From an uncultured Ruminococcus sp. (GTDB lineage: Bacteria > Bacillota > Clostridia > Oscillospirales > Acutalibacteraceae): a stretch of 64,000 bases of DNA. Location: contig CACXBF010000001.1 of the NCBI GenBank assembly GCA_902765855.1, positions 428,050-492,049 on the forward strand, read 5' to 3'. Each line of letters starts with the position of its first letter. The first letter of the stretch is position 1. The notes under the pieces were generated by a model. It was not told where the DNA came from. It searched no databases and worked only from the letters and a program-made list of their open reading frames with translations. The position numbers were made by a program, and so were the translations under genes. Positions 313-15,803 of the stretch are shown piece by piece.

Positions 313-2184
313 TTAGTCATCAATCTGATTTTCAGGGATTGGAGGAATTACTTTATCAGAACCGAAATAGATGTTATACCAAAGTAAGAAAACATAGATT
401 GTCCAAACCTTGCGGCTGTTATCTTCTTTGTTGTGAAAATGCTCGTCAAGAAGCTCAACAAGAACATCAGTGTTAAAGAACATTTCAGCAGTTTCAGATT
501 TAAACATATCCTTAACAATGTTATAGAATTTTTCGTCACGGAGCCAAACTCTTGTAGGAACAGGAAAACCAAGCTTTTCCTTTTGAGCAGTTTCCTTTGG
601 AAGATGACGGAGAGCAGCCATACGCATTGCATACTTTGTGTTCTTTCTATTTACACGAAGATTTGTAGGAAGCTTTCTCGCAACCTCAAAAACCTTTCTG
701 TCAAGGAACGGAACACGAAGTTCAAGAGAGTTAGCCATACTCATACGGTCAGCCTTGAGAAGAATATCACCGACCATCCAAAGGTTGATATCGAGATATT
801 GCATCTTGGTAACATCATCATAGCCACGAACTCTGTCATAAAACTTTTTGCAAAGGTCCTGTGGACGAGTTACGATTGAAGTATCCTTGAGGATTTCATC
901 TTTTTCTTTATCATCAAATAGGAAAGCATTACCTATGAACTTTTCTTCAGTAACTCTTTCGCCACGAAGAATAAAGCCTCTGCCCTTGATGTGTGGCATC
1001 TTGCGAGCCTTGTTAGCTAAAGCAGTTCTTGCCTTTTGGTTGAAAATCTTCTGATAGAGCTTAAATACATGAGGTTCATTATAGACAGTGTATCCGCCAA
1101 AAAGTTCGTCGGCGCCTTCGCCTGAGAGAACAACTTTTACATATTTACTTGCTAACTTTGAAACAAAGTAAAGTGCAATACATGATGGGTCTGCGAGAGG
1201 TTGGTCCATCTGATACTGAACCTTAGGAACAGCCCCCCAGAATTCATCAGAGCCGATAAGCTTTGTGTGGTGGTCAACGCCGATTTTTTCAGAAAGACGC
1301 TTTGCCCAGCTTATTTCGTTGTAGTGGTCGCCGAAGTCAAAACCGACAGTAAATGTCTTTTGGTCAGCAAAGTATGTTGAAACATAGCTTGAGTCAACAC
1401 CGCTTGAAAGGAAACAACCAACCTCAACATCACTGATTTTGTGAGCATTAACAGAATCCTCAAATACAGCCTCGATTTCATCAACAGCTTTATCAAGTGT
1501 GAGTGATTCATCAGGCTTAAAAGTAGCCTCGAAATATCTTGTAGTAGTAACCTTGCCGTCCTTATACCAAAGGTAATGTCCCGGTAAAAGACAGTAAATG
1601 CCCTCAAAGAAAGTTTCAGGCGGAACTACATATTGGAAAGAAAGGTAGTTATCAAGAGCCTTATGGTTGAATTTCTTTTTATATTTCGGATATTCAAGAA
1701 TACTCTTAATTTCAGAGGCATAGACGAAAGAACCGTCAACCATAGCGTAGTGCATAGGCTTTATGCCAAAGAAATCTCTTGCAATAAATAAAGAGCCGTC
1801 CTTTGTGTTGTGAATTGCAAAACCAAACATACCTCGGAGCTTCATAAGCATATCCTCGCCCCATTCTTCAAAGGCATGGATGAGAACTTCGGAGTCTGTC
1901 TGAGTATAAAACTTATGACCAGCCTCCATAAGTTCCTTACGCAAATCCTTATAGTTATAAATTTCTCCGTTAAACATAAGAACGAGTGATTTATCTTCAT
2001 TATATATAGGCTGACTACCTGCATCAAGGTCTATAATACTAAGACGGCGAAAGCCCATAGAAATCTTGTCGCTTGTATAGTAGCCGTAGCTATCAGGACC
2101 TCTGTGAGTGATAACATCGGTCATTCTTTTAAGGACATCATCTCTGTCGATTATTTCGCCAGTAAATCCGCATAATCCGCACAT
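313..2184 (-). CDS. asnB: Glutamine-hydrolysing asparagine synthetase family protein (AsnB type)
   Basis: Class II glutamine amidotransferase that moves glutamine nitrogen onto an acyl-adenylate, classically aspartate to asparagine. The mature protein starts MCGLCGF, so Cys2 is the expected nucleophile; the N-terminal half is the glutaminase domain. The synthetase half has the PP-loop LSSGVDSS near residue 260 and SGEGADELFGGY near residue 360. At 623 residues it has the length of the Bacillus AsnB group. Members of this family in Gram-positives either make free asparagine or amidate the meso-diaminopimelate of peptidoglycan (known for B. subtilis AsnB and Corynebacterium LtsA), and sequence alone does not separate these. 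It is divergent from a MurT/GatD-like operon, which makes a wall role worth considering. Start chosen at ATG 2184 with a purine-rich AAGGGAAG site upstream. Confidence 0.93.
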   Translation of the reverse strand: MCGLCGFTGEIIDRDDVLKRMTDVITHRGPDSYGYYTSDKISMGFRRLSIIDLDAGSQPIYNEDKSLVLMFNGEIYNYKDLRKELMEAGHKFYTQTDSEVLIHAFEEWGEDMLMKLRGMFGFAIHNTKDGSLFIARDFFGIKPMHYAMVDGSFVYASEIKSILEYPKYKKKFNHKALDNYLSFQYVVPPETFFEGIYCLLPGHYLWYKDGKVTTTRYFEATFKPDESLTLDKAVDEIEAVFEDSVNAHKISDVEVGCFLSSGVDSSYVSTYFADQKTFTVGFDFGDHYNEISWAKRLSEKIGVDHHTKLIGSDEFWGAVPKVQYQMDQPLADPSCIALYFVSKLASKYVKVVLSGEGADELFGGYTVYNEPHVFKLYQKIFNQKARTALANKARKMPHIKGRGFILRGERVTEEKFIGNAFLFDDKEKDEILKDTSIVTRPQDLCKKFYDRVRGYDDVTKMQYLDINLWMVGDILLKADRMSMANSLELRVPFLDRKVFEVARKLPTNLRVNRKNTKYAMRMAALRHLPKETAQKEKLGFPVPTRVWLRDEKFYNIVKDMFKSETAEMFFNTDVLVELLDEHFHNKEDNSRKVWTIYVFLLWYNIYFGSDKVIPPIPENQIDD

Positions 2185-2516: not shown

Positions 2517-3878
2517 ATGCTGAGATTTATTATTAGCCTTTGGGCATCAAAGCTGTGCCTATTTTTATTTAAGCATACAGGCAGAGAGCGTGACGACAGA
2601 CCGGGTATTCTTGCTCTCAGACTTTGCCCGAATTTTCTTGATAGAGTTAAGAAACCACCGCTTGTTGTCGCTGTTACAGGAACAAACGGTAAAACAACAA
2701 TATCAAATCTTGTCAGCAATATATTAAATCTTGAGGGAAAAAAGGTTGCGTATAATACATGGGGAGCTAACTATAAGGCAGGACAGGCAAGATGCTTGCT
2801 TGATGCTGTAAGTATTTTCAACAGACCTACTAAAGACGCAGCAGTTGTTGAAGTTGATGAACTTCTTTCATATAAGACTTTGCCGTGGATTCAACCGAAT
2901 TATGTTATAGTAACTAATATTTGTCGTGACTCAATAAGAAGAAATGCTCATCAGGACCTTATTTTCAGCAGAATAAATCAAGGCGTATCAAAGCTTCCAA
3001 ATGCTACGCTTATCCTTAATGCTGATGACCCGAATAGTAGTTTCTTAGGCGAAAATAACAATAAGCGTTTCTTTGCAATAGCGGACCAACACGCTGATGT
3101 TTTTGAAACAAATGTTTCAGACTTCCCTGTTTGTCCTAAGTGTGGAACTGTTCCGGTATTTAATTACCGCCATTATCGTGCAATCGGAAATTTCTATTGC
3201 CCTAATTGCGGTTTGAAATCCAAGACAGGAGATTTCATTGGAACTAAGCTTGATTTTGATAAAAGAGAAATGCTTGTCAAAGAAAAGGACGGAGAATTTA
3301 AATATCCGCTTGTTTCTGATACAATTTTTAATGCCTTTAATATTATGGCTATCATCACACTTTTCCGTACTATTGGATATTCCCCGGAGGTTATTGCTGA
3401 GCATATTAAGCATATTAAGCTTCCTGAAAACAGAGTTGCCTGTGAAGATTTGGGCAAGATAAAAATGTACACATTCTCCGCAAAAGGACAGAATGTTTCT
3501 GCGGCCTCTACCGTATTTGAATATCTCGCAAAAGAACCATCAAAGAAAGAGCTTATTCTTTTGCTTGATGAACATTACGGAGATGACCCTAATATTGAAA
3601 CAATCACTTGGTTATATGAAACTGATTTTGAATATCTCAACAATGAGAATATAAAAAAGATTATCGTTGCAGGTCAGCGTTACCTTGATTATAAGCTTCG
3701 TTTGCGTCTTGCAGGAATCCCTGTTGAAAAAACCGTTTGCGTTTTTGATGAACAAACTATTCCGGATTATGTATCAACAGACGGAATCGAATCAATCTAT
3801 GTTCTGCACGATGTTACAACAGTTCTCAGAGCTAAGAAGATTAAGGACAAAATTAAAGAAAAAATCACAAACCAATGA
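2517..3878 (+). CDS. MurT-like Mur ligase family protein
   Basis: MurT is the Mur-ligase subunit of the MurT/GatD enzyme that amidates the D-glutamate of lipid II in the cytoplasm. Seen here: ATP loop TGTNGKTT around residue 58, LNADD in the central domain, a four-cysteine zinc ribbon (CPKC and CPNC about 20 residues apart, near residues 205-230) diagnostic of MurT, and a DUF1727-type C-terminal domain. The ADGxDVSWIWD-like motif of typical MurT is replaced by GDDPNIETITWLYE, a clear divergence. Start ATG 2517 is preferred over the upstream in-frame ATG at 2478 because AGGAGG lies 10 bases before it; this gives 453 residues. It forms an operon with the GatD-like gene 17 bp downstream. Confidence 0.85.
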   Translation: MLRFIISLWASKLCLFLFKHTGRERDDRPGILALRLCPNFLDRVKKPPLVVAVTGTNGKTTISNLVSNILNLEGKKVAYNTWGANYKAGQARCLLDAVSIFNRPTKDAAVVEVDELLSYKTLPWIQPNYVIVTNICRDSIRRNAHQDLIFSRINQGVSKLPNATLILNADDPNSSFLGENNNKRFFAIADQHADVFETNVSDFPVCPKCGTVPVFNYRHYRAIGNFYCPNCGLKSKTGDFIGTKLDFDKREMLVKEKDGEFKYPLVSDTIFNAFNIMAIITLFRTIGYSPEVIAEHIKHIKLPENRVACEDLGKIKMYTFSAKGQNVSAASTVFEYLAKEPSKKELILLLDEHYGDDPNIETITWLYETDFEYLNNENIKKIIVAGQRYLDYKLRLRLAGIPVEKTVCVFDEQTIPDYVSTDGIESIYVLHDVTTVLRAKKIKDKIKEKITNQ

Positions 3879-3895
3879 GCCAATAAGGAGGATAT

Positions 3896-4627
3896 ATGAA
3901 AATAGAAGTACTTTACCCCGAACTTTCTAATCTTTACGGAGATTATTACAACGCTAAATATCTTGCTATGTGTATTCCGGATAGTCAGACAGTTTTTACC
4001 TCAAATAATGATAAACCCGCTTTTCTTAGCGAAAAAGTTGATATAATCTGTATGGGTTCTATGTCAGAAAGAAATCAGGAATTTGCAATTAAACATCTTA
4101 TGCCATATAAGGATAAAATCAAAGAGCTTGTAGATAATGGAACTTTCTTTCTTGCAACCGGAAATTCCTTTGAAATTTTCGGCGACCATATAGAAGATGA
4201 CGGCAAAAAAATAGAATGTCTTGGCGCTATAGATTTTTATTCAAAGCGTCAGATGAATGATAGAAGAAATTGCTTTTTCCTTGGAGATTTCCAAACAGAA
4301 AAAGGTGAAGATATTAAAATAGTAGGTCATAAATCGCAGTTCTCATTCTCGCATGGAAAGGCTACCGAAAAGCCATTTATAAGTGTTGAGGGTGGTTTTG
4401 GAATAAACCTTGATAGCAAGAACGAAGGCGTTCATTATAAGAATTTCTTTGGAACATATATCCTTGGTCCGTTTATTATGCTTAATCCGCAATTTTTAAA
4501 GTACCTATTAAGGTCAATGAATCTCAATGATAGCTTACTTTATGAAGAAGAAATCAATAATGCATATGCTGACAGATTAAAAAGGCTTCAGCGTGAAGGC
4601 ACAGAATTTCTTATGGGAGCGGAATAA
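3896..4627 (+). CDS. GatD-like class I glutamine amidotransferase homologue lacking catalytic Cys and His
   Basis: GatD normally hydrolyses glutamine to supply ammonia to MurT. The fold is recognisable: N-terminal LYPELSNLYGD, a central MGS...RNQEF segment, and a C-terminal NFFGTYILGP. However, the nucleophile elbow that reads AICGGYQ in CobQ/GatD proteins reads ATGNSFE here (codons GCA ACC GGA AAT around 4153), so the catalytic Cys is Gly; and GTYLHGP reads GTYILGP, so the catalytic His is Leu. I infer loss of glutaminase activity, by manual alignment. AAGGAGG precedes ATG 3896. Typical length for the family (243 residues), no frameshift. It may still be a structural partner of the MurT-like ligase or bind another ligand. 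Confidence 0.82.
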   Translation: MKIEVLYPELSNLYGDYYNAKYLAMCIPDSQTVFTSNNDKPAFLSEKVDIICMGSMSERNQEFAIKHLMPYKDKIKELVDNGTFFLATGNSFEIFGDHIEDDGKKIECLGAIDFYSKRQMNDRRNCFFLGDFQTEKGEDIKIVGHKSQFSFSHGKATEKPFISVEGGFGINLDSKNEGVHYKNFFGTYILGPFIMLNPQFLKYLLRSMNLNDSLLYEEEINNAYADRLKRLQREGTEFLMGAE

Positions 4628-4654
4628 TTTTATCAAAGGTTTGGTGTTTATAAT

Positions 4655-5653
4655 ATGGGAAAAGTCGGGTTTCTTATTAAGCGTATAGCGACTCTTGATT
4701 ATAAAAATCTTATGAAAACAGCAGGCGAAGTTCATAAGGCAAGCGGAAAGAGCAGAATTTCAGCTTTTACAGATATAGTTAAGTGCGGAATGAAATATCA
4801 GGCTGGCTATATGGATTATAAGCTTTTTAAGATGTATGAGCTTAGCAATGAAGAAAGAGCAAAAATTCTTACTCGTGGCAAAAATGATGCATATGTCCGC
4901 CGTCTTAATGATAAGGAGTATGTCGGAATCTTCTCTGATAAAGCTGAATTTAATAAGCATTTTGATAAGTACCTTTGCCGTGAATGGATTTTGCTTGATG
5001 GAAATAATGAAGCTGATTTCGCCAAATTTATTCAAAATAAGGAACAGATTATAGTAAAGCCTTTAGGCTTGTGCTGTGGTAGAGGAATTGAGATTTTAGA
5101 CCCAAGAAAATATAGTGTACATGAACTTTATGACTATCTTATGAAAAATCAAAGCTACCTTGTTGAAGAAGTTGTAAAGCAAAGTGCCGAAATTTCAGCA
5201 ATTTACCCTTCATCTGTAAATACAATAAGAATAGTTACAGTGCTTAGCGATAATAATGTTCCGTCTATTGTCGGTGCATATATGAGAATAGGAACAGGCG
5301 GAAATGTTGTTGATAACTTCAACCATGGTGGAATAACAGCTCCTATAAATATAGAAACCGGAAAAATTGAGCATAAGGCTCGAAATAAGAGCAATGTATA
5401 TTTCAGCAATCATCCGGATACAAACGCTCAGATTCTTGGATTTACAATTCCAAATTGGTCTGGACTTACTGATTATGCGAAAAGCCTTGCTTTGGTTATG
5501 CCTAAGATGAGATATGTCGGTTGGGATATTTGCATTACAGAAAAGGGCTTTGCGGTTATCGAAGCAAACGAATATCCGGGCAACGACCTCTATCAGATTC
5601 CAAAGGAAGATATTGGAACAGCAAATCTTATAGAAGATGCTCTTAAAAAATAA
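4655..5653 (+). CDS. ATP-grasp protein of the sugar-transfer-associated type
   Basis: A 332-residue protein with the ATP-grasp core: QIIVKPLGLCCGRGI (ATP-binding lysine and glycine-rich loop, residues ~131-145), LVEEVV (adenine hinge), SVNTIRIVTV (the conserved N/R segment), and the metal-binding C-terminal GWDICITEKGFAVIEANEYPG. These motifs match the ATP-grasp family often found in exopolysaccharide or wall clusters, whose substrates are mostly undefined. It follows the GatD-like gene by 27 bp with the same direction, so is probably in the same operon, but its ribosome site is weak. The combination MurT-like, GatD-like, ATP-grasp suggests a carboxylate-amine ligation pathway, possibly at the envelope. 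Substrate unknown. Confidence 0.8.
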   Translation: MGKVGFLIKRIATLDYKNLMKTAGEVHKASGKSRISAFTDIVKCGMKYQAGYMDYKLFKMYELSNEERAKILTRGKNDAYVRRLNDKEYVGIFSDKAEFNKHFDKYLCREWILLDGNNEADFAKFIQNKEQIIVKPLGLCCGRGIEILDPRKYSVHELYDYLMKNQSYLVEEVVKQSAEISAIYPSSVNTIRIVTVLSDNNVPSIVGAYMRIGTGGNVVDNFNHGGITAPINIETGKIEHKARNKSNVYFSNHPDTNAQILGFTIPNWSGLTDYAKSLALVMPKMRYVGWDICITEKGFAVIEANEYPGNDLYQIPKEDIGTANLIEDALKK

Positions 5654-11436: not shown

Positions 11437-12177
11437 ATGGTAAACGCAATGATATTTGCAGGAGGTACTGGCACTCGTATGAAAACCTCCGATATTCCTA
11501 AGCAGTTTATTGAGGTTGACGGAAAGCCTATTATTATAAGAACACTCGAAAATTTTTCAAAACACCCAGAGGTTGACGGAATAGTTATTTCCTGCCTTGA
11601 GGCTTGGATTGATGAACTTTGGAAGCTTATTGAAAAGTGGAAGGTTGCCAAAATAGTTGATATAGTTAAGGGCGGTTCAACAGGTCACGAATCAATCCAT
11701 AATGGACTTGTTCGTGTAGATGAATTTACAAAGCCTGAAGATATTGTTCTTATCTGCGATGGTGTTCGTCCGGTTATGAGTGAACAGCTTATTTCAAATT
11801 GCATTAAACTTGCAAGAGAATATGAAACAGCAGTTCCTGTAACGCCAAGTATAGATTCTGTTCTCTGGAGCGATGACGGAGAACACTGCTCTAAGGCATT
11901 GCCAAGAGGTTCTATGTATATAACCCAAGCTCCACAGGGTTATACTATGAGAAAGATTATGGGAGCACACCTTGAGGCTGAGAGGCGTGGAATAGTTTCG
12001 CCTACATCTTCAAGCGAGCTTCTTATAGAGCTTGGACAGGAAATTCATATTTATATAGGTGAGCGTGATAATATCAAAGTAACAACGCCTGAAGATTTAT
12101 TGACATTGCGTTCACACTATTATTATGAGAGATATAAGAGCTTTGCTCGTGAGGAATTGAAGTACGGACTTGAGTAA
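11437..12177 (+). CDS. IspD/TarI family cytidylyltransferase, probably alditol-phosphate type
   Basis: Transfers CMP from CTP to a polyol phosphate. The N-terminal nucleotide loop FAGGTGTRM followed by PKQFIEVDGKPII, the CDGVRP motif near residue 108, and the C-terminal NIKVTTPEDL are typical. IspD makes CDP-methylerythritol for isoprenoids, whereas TarI makes CDP-ribitol for wall teichoic acid; the AGGTGTRM...PKQF version and the TagF-like gene next door favour a TarI-type role. 246 residues, normal. Start ATG 11437 follows GGGCGG. It probably forms an operon with the large gene 66 bp downstream. Confidence 0.82.
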   Translation: MVNAMIFAGGTGTRMKTSDIPKQFIEVDGKPIIIRTLENFSKHPEVDGIVISCLEAWIDELWKLIEKWKVAKIVDIVKGGSTGHESIHNGLVRVDEFTKPEDIVLICDGVRPVMSEQLISNCIKLAREYETAVPVTPSIDSVLWSDDGEHCSKALPRGSMYITQAPQGYTMRKIMGAHLEAERRGIVSPTSSSELLIELGQEIHIYIGERDNIKVTTPEDLLTLRSHYYYERYKSFAREELKYGLE

Positions 12178-12184
12178 TTTTCAA

Positions 12185-12208
12185 AATTCTGAATTGTAGT
12201 TCAGAATT
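12185..12208 (+). other. Intercistronic hairpin
   Basis: AATTCTGAA (12185-12193) pairs perfectly with TTCAGAATT (12200-12208) between the cytidylyltransferase and the TagF-like gene. There is no strong U tract, so it is more likely a processing or weak attenuation site than a terminator. Confidence 0.45.
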
Positions 12209-12242
12209 ATTTAAAGTATATAGTGTTTAATCGGGGTAGGGT

Positions 12243-15200
12243 ATGGCTAAAGATTATAAATTCAGTATAAGTGTGTATATAGATAACGAGGAACTTTTGC
12301 CTGCTACTATTGCATCAATTACTGCTGATAAGGAATTTTTCCGCAATAGCATACAAATTGTTTTAATCGACTCTCTTGTAACAAAAGAGAGTACCGAGTT
12401 ATGCCTTAAATACACCGATGATTACCCTGAAAATATATATTTTGTTGACTGCCAAGGCGAAAATATGGCAGAGTGCTTTAGCGATGCAAGAGTTATTTGC
12501 ACAGGAAGTTATGTAAGCTTTATTCGTGCCGGAGATGAATATTCTCACGAAGCACTTAAAAGACTTTCAGAAGAACCTGCATTTATGAAAGCTCCTGCAA
12601 TATGTATTGCCGCTGAAACTTCTAAACGCCGAAATAGCTTGGTTCCGTATAATTTCGGTGCTAAAGACGGAACAATTCGACTTAAAACTAATCCTGATAA
12701 ATTAAGTCTTATTCTTGGGGCATACTTTTTTAGAAGCGATACCATTACTAATGTTCGTTTCAAAAAAAGCCTTTCAAGTGATTTTACAATGGCGTTTATC
12801 CTTGATTATTTCTATCATATCGCTTCTTATGTTTATACATCAAAGTTTAAATTTATATCGCCATATCCTGCCGAGAATGATATAAAAAACCTAAAGGAAC
12901 AGTATAATAAATCATATTTCACAGATTCTATAATGAGATTTGCTATACCTATGCTCGAAACAAAGGGTAATTCTGCTGTGATTATGAATATGGTAATGTA
13001 TTTAATTTACATAAAGCTTGCTTGTGGGCTTGGCGAAAGATATATGTTTACTATGGGTCCTAATGGTGTAAATGATTTTTTTAACCTTATAAGCGATGCT
13101 ATGAAAAATATAGACGATGCCGTTATTCTTAATAGAAATATAGCAAGAAGAGCTTTGTTCCCATCAACGCTCACTTTTAAAATGCTTAGGTTGAAATATC
13201 ATAATAAGGCACTAAAGCCTGACTTGGATTTCTTTCCTATCGGAAATTTAAGTCAGTTTGAATTTAGAGATGCATCGCTTCGTCCCCGTAAGATGAAAAC
13301 AAATGGTGGGTTTATAGCAACTCTTGGCGGTGCATTGATTTCATCATCAGAACATATTGATGTTAAGATTATGTCGCTTAAGGCTGAAGGTTCTAATCTT
13401 CATATAAGTGGTTGTGTTACAGATATTTCGTTCCTTGATAGAATAGAATATAAGTTGTTTGCTGTTTCAAATAGAGAAAAAATACCATTTAAGGACTATC
13501 CTTTCTATTCTCTTAAAACTCTTTTTGAAATCCCTTTTGATAAAGATCACGGTTTTACAATTACTGTTCCACTTAAAAATATAAAGGAAATGACAGTTAT
13601 TTCTTTCTATATTTCTATTGATAAGATAAACTATAAGCTAAGATTTTCCTTCGGTGCAACGGCGGCTCACCTTACTGAAAAATTTCCGCATAGCTATTGT
13701 GTTTCAGGTGGCAGACTGATTACCTTTGATTTGGAAAAACGCTCTATAACAATTCGTAGAGCAACATCTTTTATGCAGAGCCACCATGAGAGGCTTTTCC
13801 TTTCTGATGTAAAGAAAGCAGTTCCTGTTCAGAAATATCTAAAAATTAAGCGTCTTAGAAAGCGCTATCATTCAACTATTGAAAAATATGCTGAAAGACG
13901 AATTTGGCTTATGTGCGATAGTAAGAATGCCAATTCGGAAGATGCTCACGATATATATAACTACATCAACTCGTTGCACGATAAGCGAGGTATAGAGGTA
14001 TTCTATTCGCATAGGGAGATTAACCCTGACGATAGTTTTATTATGACAGCATTCCAAAGCAACAATCTTGCAAGTGGTACTTTGACTCAAAAAATTATTG
14101 CAATGAATGCCGATGTGATAATTTCAAACGGACATAATGTTTATAAAAATCTTGGCTTTGAAGATGGAGAGGAAATCTACTATCGAGATTTGCTTATGGC
14201 AGATATAGTTTCCTTTGGCGATGGAGTATCTATGCTTCGTTCCGCGCAATTTGAGAACAAGATGTACGATAATACAGCATTGCGTTTTTGCAGTTCTGAA
14301 CAAGAATATGAAAGACTTATTCACCCAATATATGGATATGACCAAAAGCACCTATTTGCGTTTGGTTATCCTCATATGGATACTCTTATGTCGGTGCCAT
14401 CAAAGCAGATTCTTGTATGCCCGGCTATGCGCAGAGGCTTTGCAAAATATGCCCATATTGGTTACCAGAATTTCACGACAGAACCGCTTTATTCTGTGTT
14501 CAATTCGTTTATTGCAGATAAAAAGCTTCTTTCAGCGCTTCACGAAAATAAATGCAATCTTATTTTGATTTTGCCGGAAGAGCTTGCCAAGCAGGAATAT
14601 TTATGGAATAAGAGCGAATATGTTTCTGTTTCATCATTTGAAAATTTAGGATATAAAGAAACAGTGGAAAAATCAGCTATGCTGATTACGGATTACAGCA
14701 ATATAGCATTTGATTTTGCGTATATGCGAAAACCTGTAATTTACTATCAAAATCCAAGCGTTTCTTTACAAAATAATATTTCATCCTTTAGCTATTGTGA
14801 GAATGGTTTTGGTGATGTGATTATCGATTCAGATGAACTTGTAGAAAAGGTTATTTCAGCAATAAATTCAAAATTTGAGGTATCTGCAGAATATCTCAAA
14901 CGCCGAAAAGAATTTTTTGCGTTTGATGATAGAAATAACTGCAAGCGCATTGCGAATGCAATTTACGATTTTGAATATAGTAATAAAATTCCTACTGCTG
15001 ATGTTAAAGGAGGTTTTGGAGAAGTAAAACCAAAACCTGAGCCGCAGCCTATTATAAAACAAGCTCCTAAGCAAGAGAAAGTTGAAAAAACTACAAATCC
15101 AGTTGAAAAGAAATTACAACAGCAGCCTAAAAAGGTTACTGAACCAAAAGAGGAGTATGAAGAAGTAGAGCATCAGGGAATAATATATTCTGATGTCCCT

Positions 15201-15803
15201 AAAAAACAACAGGTTGGACATTCTGAAGAGCAGAAAATTTCACAGACATATCGTCCAAGACCAACCGAGCCACCTCGTCAATCAGAACAGCATACAGCTG
15301 AAAGGCGAGTACAGCCACAGCGACAGCAAACACAGCAAATTCGCTATGCAGAAGCTCCTCCAAAAAGACAGCAATCAACAGAACCGCTTCGTCAATCGGA
15401 ACAGCATACAGCTGAAAGGCGAGTACAGTCACAGCGACAGCAAACGCAACAGATTCGTTATGCAGAAGCTCCTCCAAAAAGACAGCGACCAACAGAACCG
15501 CCTCGTCAATCGGAACAGCATACAGTCGAAAGGCGAGTACAACCACAGCGACAGCCAACACAGCAGATTCGCTATGCAGAAGCTCCTAAAAGACAAACGA
15601 GACCTGCACAGCCACAGCGTTCAAGTGGTGGTGCGAGATATGCAAACCCGAATCAACAGAGAGGTTCCCAAAAACCTTCAGAGGCAAGGCGAGTTGCACA
15701 AAATCAGCGAAAAGCACCAACTTCACAAGAGCGTGTAAAGCAAACAACAGCTCAACCAAAACACGCTGATAAAAAATCTAAAAAAGGTTTCAGAATTTTC
15801 TGA
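12243..15803 (+). CDS. GT2-like plus TagF-like fusion protein with basic repeat tail, probably catalytically altered
   Basis: 1186 residues in three parts. Residues ~1-250 follow a family 2 glycosyltransferase fold (SISVYIDNEE, IVLIDS, SYVSFIRAGDEY), but the metal-binding DDGS and DxD positions read IDSL and RAGD. Residues ~540-930 follow the CDP-glycerol glycerophosphotransferase (TagF) domain: ITDYSNIAFDFAYMRKPVIYYQ is well kept, but the QHGV motif with the catalytic His reads GDGV and the RYD motif reads HMD. Residues ~930-1186 are Pro/Gln/Arg-rich and disordered, with three 38-residue repeats, ending KKSKKGFRIF. It lies after a TarI-like gene, so teichoic-acid-like polymer work is the natural context. 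I infer reduced or changed catalysis from motif loss. No signal peptide, so cytoplasmic or membrane-associated. GGGTAGGGT precedes the start. Confidence 0.78.
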   Translation: MAKDYKFSISVYIDNEELLPATIASITADKEFFRNSIQIVLIDSLVTKESTELCLKYTDDYPENIYFVDCQGENMAECFSDARVICTGSYVSFIRAGDEYSHEALKRLSEEPAFMKAPAICIAAETSKRRNSLVPYNFGAKDGTIRLKTNPDKLSLILGAYFFRSDTITNVRFKKSLSSDFTMAFILDYFYHIASYVYTSKFKFISPYPAENDIKNLKEQYNKSYFTDSIMRFAIPMLETKGNSAVIMNMVMYLIYIKLACGLGERYMFTMGPNGVNDFFNLISDAMKNIDDAVILNRNIARRALFPSTLTFKMLRLKYHNKALKPDLDFFPIGNLSQFEFRDASLRPRKMKTNGGFIATLGGALISSSEHIDVKIMSLKAEGSNLHISGCVTDISFLDRIEYKLFAVSNREKIPFKDYPFYSLKTLFEIPFDKDHGFTITVPLKNIKEMTVISFYISIDKINYKLRFSFGATAAHLTEKFPHSYCVSGGRLITFDLEKRSITIRRATSFMQSHHERLFLSDVKKAVPVQKYLKIKRLRKRYHSTIEKYAERRIWLMCDSKNANSEDAHDIYNYINSLHDKRGIEVFYSHREINPDDSFIMTAFQSNNLASGTLTQKIIAMNADVIISNGHNVYKNLGFEDGEEIYYRDLLMADIVSFGDGVSMLRSAQFENKMYDNTALRFCSSEQEYERLIHPIYGYDQKHLFAFGYPHMDTLMSVPSKQILVCPAMRRGFAKYAHIGYQNFTTEPLYSVFNSFIADKKLLSALHENKCNLILILPEELAKQEYLWNKSEYVSVSSFENLGYKETVEKSAMLITDYSNIAFDFAYMRKPVIYYQNPSVSLQNNISSFSYCENGFGDVIIDSDELVEKVISAINSKFEVSAEYLKRRKEFFAFDDRNNCKRIANAIYDFEYSNKIPTADVKGGFGEVKPKPEPQPIIKQAPKQEKVEKTTNPVEKKLQQQPKKVTEPKEEYEEVEHQGIIYSDVPKKQQVGHSEEQKISQTYRPRPTEPPRQSEQHTAERRVQPQRQQTQQIRYAEAPPKRQQSTEPLRQSEQHTAERRVQSQRQQTQQIRYAEAPPKRQRPTEPPRQSEQHTVERRVQPQRQPTQQIRYAEAPKRQTRPAQPQRSSGGARYANPNQQRGSQKPSEARRVAQNQRKAPTSQERVKQTTAQPKHADKKSKKGFRIF
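15258..15596 (+). repeat. Tandem 114-bp coding repeats
   Basis: Three head-to-tail copies (15258-15371, 15372-15485, 15486-15596), each coding for about 38 residues of the pattern RPTEPPRQSEQHTAERR then RYAEAPPKRQ. The third copy lacks one codon. High DNA identity between copies points to recent expansion. Confidence 0.9.

Follow-up and report, generated by a model that had tools for sequence, protein, structure and literature searches.

A MurT/GatD-like pair without the GatD catalytic residues, joined to an ATP-grasp gene, and its relatives in a widespread family

RESULTS

The pair is a relative of MurT/GatD without the glutaminase residues

A locus of an uncultured Ruminococcus sp. encodes a MurT-like ligase and a GatD-like protein from which the glutaminase residues are missing, and this pair belongs to a widespread family with repeated losses of the GatD cysteine. 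The best explanation, at about even odds, is that the locus encodes a glutamine-independent relative of the lipid II isoglutaminyl synthase, in which the Mur-type ligase would put an amino acid, rather than GatD-made ammonia, on D-Glu. In the window (the whole stretch of 64,000 nucleotides that was analysed), the murT-like, gatD-like and ATP-grasp genes form one run at positions 2517-5653, all on the plus strand and with gaps of 17 and 27 bp, and an AsnB-like gene lies divergent from murT. The features are as follows.

313..2184, minus strand: AsnB-like glutamine amidotransferase, 623 aa, N-terminus MCGLCGF, Cys2 present; TIGR01536, 499.6 bits
2517..3878, plus strand: MurT-like ATP-dependent ligase, 453 aa; PF08353 (MurT_C), 80.1 bits; NF045635, 148.8 bits against a cut-off of 800; dN/dS 0.020
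2679..2696, plus strand: Walker A loop GTNGKT of MurT; G68, N70, G71 and K72 present in 22/22 pairs of the window's clade
3132..3209, plus strand: MurT zinc ribbon, four Cys
3600..3602, plus strand: Thr codon at the S. aureus MurT Asp349 column
3896..4627, plus strand: GatD-like pseudo-glutaminase, 243 aa; PF07685 (GATase_3), 45.6 bits; dN/dS 0.045; model pLDDT 92.0, best match 6gs2_A
4160..4162, plus strand: GGA (Gly89) at the position of the nucleophile Cys94
4463..4465, plus strand: CTT (Leu190) at the position of His189
4655..5653, plus strand: ATP-grasp ligase, 332 aa, Sugar-transfer-associated ATP-grasp family; ATPgrasp_ST PF14397, 176.5 bits

A GGAGG sequence precedes the murT-like ATG at 2517; residue numbers for the window MurT (68-72, 125-128, 154, 319, 336 and 408) are counted from an upstream TTG at 2478. 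The MurT_C score (80.1 against a Pfam cut-off of 25) and the GATase_3 score (45.6 against 27 bits) place the two adjacent genes in the broad MurT/GatD superfamily, MurT also scoring 48 for the Pfam domain Mur_ligase_M, and the ATP-grasp protein lies well above the PF14397 gathering score (176.5 against 31.4 bits). Like the MurT/GatD synthase of S. aureus, S. pneumoniae and S. pyogenes, the pair has the murT-gatD order, a Mur core with GTNGKT, a four-Cys zinc ribbon and the GatD fold. Unlike that enzyme, it is without the nucleophile Cys94, His189 and MurT Asp349, has an ATP-grasp partner and falls far below the NCBIfam equivalog cut-offs (148.8 against 800 for MurT and 82.2 against 400 for GatD). 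The archaeal MurT-like proteins, described in an excerpt of PMC11915815 as MurT homologues without a GatD glutaminase, offer a further parallel; in the bacterial window, however, the GatD protein is retained and its catalytic residues are gone.

The AsnB-like product may make asparagine or, like some of its relatives, amidate meso-DAP, an activity given for AsnB of Listeria and others in part of PMC8554201. The MurE of the window genome has DNSR in place of the usual DNPR, which suggests that the organism carries DAP at position 3; a type B wall is not implied. As to whether a canonical murT-gatD exists besides the odd pair, the only other MurT of the window genome belongs to a second dead pair.

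GatD has lost its glutaminase site but is under purifying selection

The preliminary description had read glycine for the nucleophile cysteine and leucine for the catalytic histidine of the GatD homologue. Both readings are borne out when the protein is aligned by HMMER with S. aureus GatD (5n9m, 6gs2): Gly89, encoded by GGA, falls on Cys94, and Leu190, encoded by CTT, on His189. Among the 22 pairs of the window's clade, compared by sequence, no GatD column carries Cys in at least half of the members, and one carries His in exactly half, at a position that is mostly V or R in canonical GatDs; a displaced catalytic Cys or His thus finds no conserved candidate in this clade. A sequencing error is very unlikely, because the identical two codons, GGA and CTT, recur in another species of the genus. 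In S. aureus, C94G or C94S, and likewise MurT D349N, abolish or severely reduce amidation, according to extracts of PMC6113224 and PMC6085368. From the alignments, then, the glutaminase function of the window GatD has almost certainly been lost.

The view that this is not simple decay held up, since frame and fold are kept, the dN/dS of the pair genes (0.020-0.045) indicates purifying selection, and the AlphaFold2 model of GatD (mean pLDDT 92.0) has S. aureus GatD as its nearest solved structure (6gs2_A, TM 0.78, 26% identity). In the three main dead clades the losses extend beyond Cys and His to a conserved His at GatD 148 and to parts of the oxyanion stretch Gly-Gly-Gly. The gate Tyr, an acidic residue where Sp has Asp32 and, in 98% of members, the Arg that captures glutamine persist in the core dead clade, so that GatD may still admit a small ligand; the window's clade and the Eubacteriaceae clade no longer have this Arg.

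MurT retains its ligase core

Residue comparison across the window's clade agrees with the earlier reading that the ATP loop and zinc ribbon of MurT are kept and that its ADGxDVSW-type motif is altered, the window having GDDPNIETITW where S. aureus has ADGRDTSW. At the column of Asp349, the residue that completes the triad in S. aureus (PMC6113224, in part), the window has Thr, the window's clade has Asn in 59%, and the core dead clade has D or E in 99%. E125, D127, E128 and K336 are invariant in every clade, R319 and R408 reach 91-100%, and in the dead clades the zinc cysteines are kept at 93-100%. Conservation is lower outside the ligase core, and at window 154, in the MurT loop next to GatD, each of the three main dead clades has another residue in place of the conserved Asp. 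The pair is very probably a still active ligase.

Loss of the GatD cysteine is widespread

Across 196 genomes of the class, Cys is absent in 29 of the 104 readable GatDs. By parsimony, a tree of 311 pairs needs seven changes between Cys and non-Cys, and 150 of the 162 non-Cys pairs fall in one group. The pair is not an isolated oddity but a member of a widespread family. Cys and non-Cys pairs occur together in three genomes read (G054, G267 and G502), so that a dead pair need not take the place of a canonical one, and the idea that it arises only by such replacement is weakened.

Partner genes of the dead pairs

The joining of an ATP-grasp gene to the pair, proposed in the preliminary description, reflects a real partnership by both co-occurrence and adjacency. 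The window-type ATP-grasp was found in 11/28 non-Cys genomes against 3/168 others (P = 1.9e-8, a value that, like all P values here, is uncorrected for the kinship of genomes and comes from a profile of dead-linked sequences), and it lies within 3 kb of 13/138 non-Cys loci against 0/86 Cys loci, in non-random samples for which dead loci were deliberately sought. In these locus counts, dead means any GatD without Cys, including two Ser/His loci (L075 and L434). The profile was built from six sequences encoded next to dead pairs or close by, in which E303, N305 and PG308-309 are invariant, and the cut of 250 bits was chosen after a score gap (251 to 192) was seen. The gene also occurs alongside a canonical pair (G124) and without MurT (G112, G130). 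Its product resembles RimK and other ATP-grasp amino-acid ligases in predicted fold, these being the nearest solved structures, with RimK 4iwx as top match at 14% identity. Similarity to RimK is nevertheless low (the two TM scores of that match are 0.46 and 0.51), other enzymes, carbamoyl phosphate synthetase among them, come out about level, and fold matches of this low-confidence model (pLDDT 75.9) are only suggestive.

Other lineages have other neighbours. FemAB overlaps or abuts gatD in all three non-Cys genomes read of one genus, and in two of these, the two compared, the remainder of the dead GatD is nearly canonical; FemAB also lies within 3 kb of 2/86 Cys loci. An ornithine-racemase-like (Orr) gene overlaps the dead gatD of G091 and is not grouped with the Eubacteriaceae racemases in a racemase tree. 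Among Eubacteriaceae, Orr-like genes were found in 28/28 genomes with only divergent MurT, E. limosum ATCC 8486 being one, and in 0/8 with canonical MurT; they are near full-length and score 398-447 bits, all below the curated cut-off of 480. Orr tracks divergent MurT only within this family: as a class-wide marker of non-Cys genomes it failed (5/28 against 22/168, P = 0.34, kinship ignored), it is absent from the window genome, and G267 and G268 gave no Orr match, though G267 has a dead pair. In those Eubacteriaceae loci that were read, Orr does not neighbour known wall genes. Several Eubacteriaceae pairs have next to them a gene of the phosphoglucomutase family, perhaps glmM, and within 3 kb murJ-like flippase genes were found at 5/138 non-Cys against 0/86 Cys loci and AsnB at 4/138 against 0/86.

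DISCUSSION

The conserved residues suggest that MurT would bind ATP and activate a carboxyl as an acyl phosphate, most likely the alpha-carboxyl of D-Glu in the lipid-linked peptidoglycan precursor. GatD, being without glutamine hydrolysis at the residue level, would serve as a structural or amine-admitting subunit. The nucleophile would most likely be an amino acid that differs by clade, with D-ornithine in the Eubacteriaceae clade, and the ATP-grasp ligase (in another lineage FemAB) would probably act on the same branch, for example by adding a second residue. That another amine or amino acid is ligated, as was first surmised, draws indirect support from the FemAB and ornithine-racemase partners and the Eubacteriaceae pattern, but free ammonia is its main rival, and we hold the chances of an amino acid over ammonia to be about equal.

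An ammonia-dependent isoglutaminyl synthase would still amidate D-Glu, using the free NH3 of ammonia-rich anaerobic habitats, with a decayed glutaminase and GatD as a scaffold. S. aureus MurT/GatD uses NH3 at pH 8.5 and still requires GatD (PMC6085368, as excerpted), which would explain a conserved dead GatD, and many of the 80 named holders are gut or rumen MAGs. On the other hand, Cys and non-Cys pairs share the three genomes named above, Eubacterium limosum and probably also Acetobacterium woodii hold only the dead pair, simple amidation has no obvious need of the ATP-grasp, FemAB and Orr partners, and the conserved Asp in the MurT loop near GatD is replaced in the three main dead clades. 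Ammonia use is rather unlikely. Action on another carboxylate, of a teichoic, capsular or soluble precursor rather than lipid II D-Glu, is less probable still and appears doubtful: the ATP-grasp belongs to the Sugar-transfer-associated family, the two pairs of the window genome may need two substrates or steps, and MurT is less conserved outside its core, but gene order and zinc ribbon are retained, and the murJ-like genes and the possible glmM count against it. It is very unlikely that the dead GatD is an allosteric sensor of glutamine or another amino acid, with AsnB next door or some other glutaminase supplying MurT with ammonia, because AsnB, though seen only near non-Cys loci, is rare there, and the glutamine-capturing Arg, so constant in the core dead clade, is lost in the window's and Eubacteriaceae clades. 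A decaying pseudogene or assembly error, for which the missing catalytic residues might be taken, is refuted by the low dN/dS, the same codons in a second species and the group of 150 non-Cys pairs.

Returning to the ligation of an amino acid, we know of no enzyme that attaches bridge amino acids to D-Glu, and none was among the literature matches listed. Tentatively, and with the odds somewhat against it, MurT with pseudo-GatD could be the missing ligase that starts group B cross-bridges and related substitutions, placing an amino acid (D-ornithine in Eubacterium/Acetobacterium, others elsewhere) on the D-Glu alpha-carboxyl; repeated loss of the GatD nucleophile would then mark such walls, and ATP-grasp or FemAB would extend the branch. 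Type B walls occur in Microbacteriaceae, which are Actinobacteria, and in Acetobacterium woodii, on whose wall no direct statement was found in the literature searched on Acetobacterium and E. limosum walls. Printed data give Ala, Glu, Lys, Orn and Ser for the E. limosum wall and list B2alpha as well as A types for the genus Eubacterium. Type B1delta is given for Erysipelothrix and Holdemania filiformis in PMC4062643, and a glycine-substituted D-Glu is given for Intrasporangium in a passage of PMC3035309. One genome of the Erysipelotrichaceae order (G617, 3.6 Mb) has a canonical pair; it could be Holdemania, and would then count against the type B link.

Because the catalytic residues have been lost and selection is maintained, many gut bacteria and their relatives probably add to their walls not ammonia from glutamine but another group, perhaps an amino acid that starts an unusual cross-link. 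If so, a plain sequence mark, Gly in GatD where Cys is expected, would forecast unusual walls in many uncultured gut Clostridia and relatives of the Erysipelotrichaceae, and would single out candidates for the enzyme that puts bridge amino acids on D-Glu. If free ammonia is used instead, these pairs would represent a natural experiment in which an amidotransferase has been uncoupled from its glutaminase.

Loss of the glutaminase residues in the window pair

The locus comprises a run of three genes next to an AsnB-like gene:

313-2184, AsnB-like gene, directed away from the three-gene run
2517-3878, + strand, murT-like gene, first of the run
3896-4627, + strand, gatD-like gene, 17 bp after the murT-like gene
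4655-5653, + strand, ATP-grasp gene, 27 bp after the gatD-like gene

Pfam and NCBIfam assign the first two products to MurT and GatD, with NCBIfam equivalog scores far under the cut-offs (148.8 against 800 bits for MurT, 82.2 against 400 bits for GatD), and the third product is ATPgrasp_ST (Pfam). HMMER alignment to the solved S. aureus proteins places Gly89 over the GatD nucleophile Cys94 and Leu190 over the catalytic His189, bearing out both replacements proposed in the preliminary description; the MurT stretch over Asp349 also differs, as proposed. The S. aureus catalytic triad is described as GatD C94 and H189 with MurT D349, and lipid II amidation as stopped by C94G or C94S (PMC6085368, PMC6113224). 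The predicted GatD model (pLDDT 92.0) has S. aureus GatD (6gs2_A) as its best solved match, and a column-wise search for a displaced Cys in the GatDs of the window's clade found no column with Cys in half of the members. At the level of sequence, these comparisons show that the glutaminase residues of GatD are lost.

Comparison with another species of the genus gives dN/dS values of 0.020 for MurT, 0.045 for GatD and 0.037 for the ATP-grasp protein, and the Gly and Leu codons of GatD are identical, indicating that the pair is indeed no case of simple decay. The window genome also holds a second pair that is dead, that is, whose GatD lacks the nucleophile Cys:

L070 5041-7145 (G000:C1 ~390.1-392.2 kb), second dead murT-gatD pair, core clade, outside the window

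In this GatD (at ~390-392 kb), Gly replaces the Cys and Thr the His; the pair is followed by a recD2-like helicase gene and then an mreB-like gene. A MurT_C search of the window genome found no third MurT; the only other MurT is thus that of the second dead pair. Elsewhere in the window (11437-15803), a nucleotidyltransferase-like ORF precedes, on reading of the translation, a 1186-aa ORF whose long tail is repetitive and rich in Gln and Pro.

Spread and phylogeny of pairs lacking the Cys

The dead pair is a family, not a single case. Among 196 sampled genomes of the window's class, MurT_C was matched in 108 (111 matches), and GatD was typed in the stretch fetched around each match: 75 matches had a GatD with the Cys, 29 one without it (26 Gly, 2 Ser, 1 Ala) and 7 no profile-detectable GatD in that stretch (L051, L329, L432, L437, L440, L446 and L449). 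The match at L449 is a broken fragment. Counted by genome, 73 had Cys only, one Cys plus an unreadable match, 27 non-Cys only, one both, and six were unreadable. A scan of named contigs favours dead GatDs because dead GatDs were the queries; its best 80 of 577 loci contained 81 GatDs, every one of which has Gly for the Cys and lacks the His, in records that included Ruminococcus bromii, Erysipelotrichaceae and Bacilli. Archaeal MurT-like proteins differ in that GatD is described as absent (PMC11915815). Among the open-licence papers listed on MurT/GatD amidation, type/group B peptidoglycan and GatD pseudoenzymes, none concerned an inactive GatD as judged from its title and the beginning of its abstract.

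The 311 MurT+GatD pairs analysed, 149 with the Cys and 162 without it, gave a midpoint-rooted tree on which seven changes between Cys and non-Cys are needed; 150 non-Cys pairs form one group (support 1.0) and the others fall into six groups of 4, 3, 2, 1, 1 and 1. In a tree of 266 pairs, three clades make up the big group: a core clade with 100 pairs, the window's clade with 22 and a Eubacteriaceae clade with 28. When this tree is rooted at its midpoint, the Eubacteriaceae clade is placed on the side of the canonical pairs (0.93), and support for joining the core clade to the window's clade is weak (0.15). From the wider class I amidotransferases, we infer that Cys is the older state. Three non-Cys pairs of one genus (L073, L074 and L447) are placed within the canonical part of the 311-pair tree, and in the two of them included in the residue comparison GatD is nearly canonical apart from the lost sites; the nucleophile and His were therefore lost first there. 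Among single loci, L046 (486-3065) has one 860-aa frame fusing MurT and GatD, with Gly for Cys and the His kept; L077 (5044-9827) has a canonical murT and gatD with phosphoesterase and HAD-hydrolase genes between them; and L436 and L445 keep the Cys, with Asp at the catalytic His position.

Conservation of MurT and partner genes

Alignment shows the predicted ligase residues of MurT to be conserved. E125, D127, E128 and K336 (window numbering, from the upstream TTG at 2478) are present in every row whatever the clade, and conservation of the Walker loop, R319 and R408 is ~90% or more (gaps counted against). For the four zinc cysteines it is 93-100% in the dead clades (one of them is kept in 83% of the canonical clade), so that the ATP loop and zinc ribbon are kept as first described. 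In the core clade, 99% of members have D or E in the Asp349 column, which is directly preceded there by a new S-R-K/R-Y stretch; the window's clade has Asn (59%) or Thr (18%) in this column, and the Eubacteriaceae clade has Asn throughout. Conserved Asp 154, whose loop lies at the GatD interface according to the S. pneumoniae paper, is replaced in all three dead clades. The glutamine-capturing GatD Arg is kept in the core clade and mostly lost in the other two.

The pair, besides being under selection, has partner genes. A profile of the window-type ATP-grasp (six sequences, all adjoining or near dead pairs), at a cut of 250 bits or more chosen after the scores were seen, matched 14 of the 196 class genomes: 11 of the 28 with a non-Cys GatD, one canonical genome (G124) and two without MurT (G112, G130). 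The association with non-Cys GatD has p 1.9e-8 with kinship ignored, and the 11 holders span seven families; one of them (G140) has a stop codon within the match. Among loci of 7 kb or more, the gene lies within 3 kb in 13 of 138 non-Cys loci versus 0 of 86 Cys loci (p 0.0015). This co-occurrence and closeness uphold the proposed joining of the ATP-grasp gene to the pair. At L132 (2690-6732), the gene lies on the opposite strand, flanked by two dead pairs that belong to different clades. In one genus (g96), each of the three non-Cys loci read has FemAB overlapping or abutting gatD; among the 86 Cys loci, two have FemAB within 3 kb. The window genome has one FemAB gene, distant from the pair. 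At L062, an ornithine-racemase-like gene overlaps a dead gatD (NF040742, 411 bits, under the cut-off of 480).

A possible source of the amine

We propose that MurT would activate a carboxyl group of a precursor, most likely that of D-Glu, as an acyl phosphate, that an amine of non-GatD origin would attack it, and that the ATP-grasp or FemAB partner may act on the same branch. The chief rival is that this amine is free ammonia, which we consider unlikely but well short of negligible: the S. aureus enzyme is described as accepting free ammonia at pH 8.5, with GatD still required (PMC6085368).

Evidence bearing on this choice comes from the Eubacteriaceae, in which 36 of 40 genomes have MurT. Twenty-eight hold only a divergent MurT (G235, G244 and G259 by MurT score alone), and the GatD Cys and His are absent in all 25 whose GatD was read; eight hold a canonical MurT, all with GatD Cys and His. 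Two of these eight have a second, weak MurT match, with one GatD (L289) read as dead. A canonical pair together with a dead one, a combination to be looked for according to the preliminary description, occurs in this genome and in one of the 196 class genomes, and the MurT_C search found none in the window genome. Matches to ornithine racemase of 398 bits or more occur in 28/28 divergent-only versus 0/8 canonical genomes, the curated cut-off being passed by none of the 40. Class-wide there is no such tie (5/28 non-Cys genomes versus 22/168), the window genome yielded no ornithine racemase, and no known wall genes were found beside it in the Eubacteriaceae loci read.

In B2alpha walls, a D-diamino acid is attached to the alpha-carboxyl of D-Glu. 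E. limosum and probably A. woodii are among the divergent-only genomes. We take E. limosum to be one of the Eubacterium species with a B wall type, and A. woodii murein is presumably type B. If so, a type B wall occurs where the sole MurT is dead, and that MurT would therefore hardly serve plain amidation. The E. limosum wall is reported to contain Ala, Glu, Lys, Orn and Ser (PMC4791908), and B2alpha is listed for Eubacterium besides A1gamma, A4alpha and A4beta (PMC11382707).

The MurE of the window genome (L334) has DNSR in place of the usual DNPR; position 3 is therefore probably occupied by DAP, and this does not imply a type B wall for the window organism. A capped D-Glu would fit this organism, by analogy with Intrasporangium calvum, where glycine on D-Glu is described (PMC3035309).
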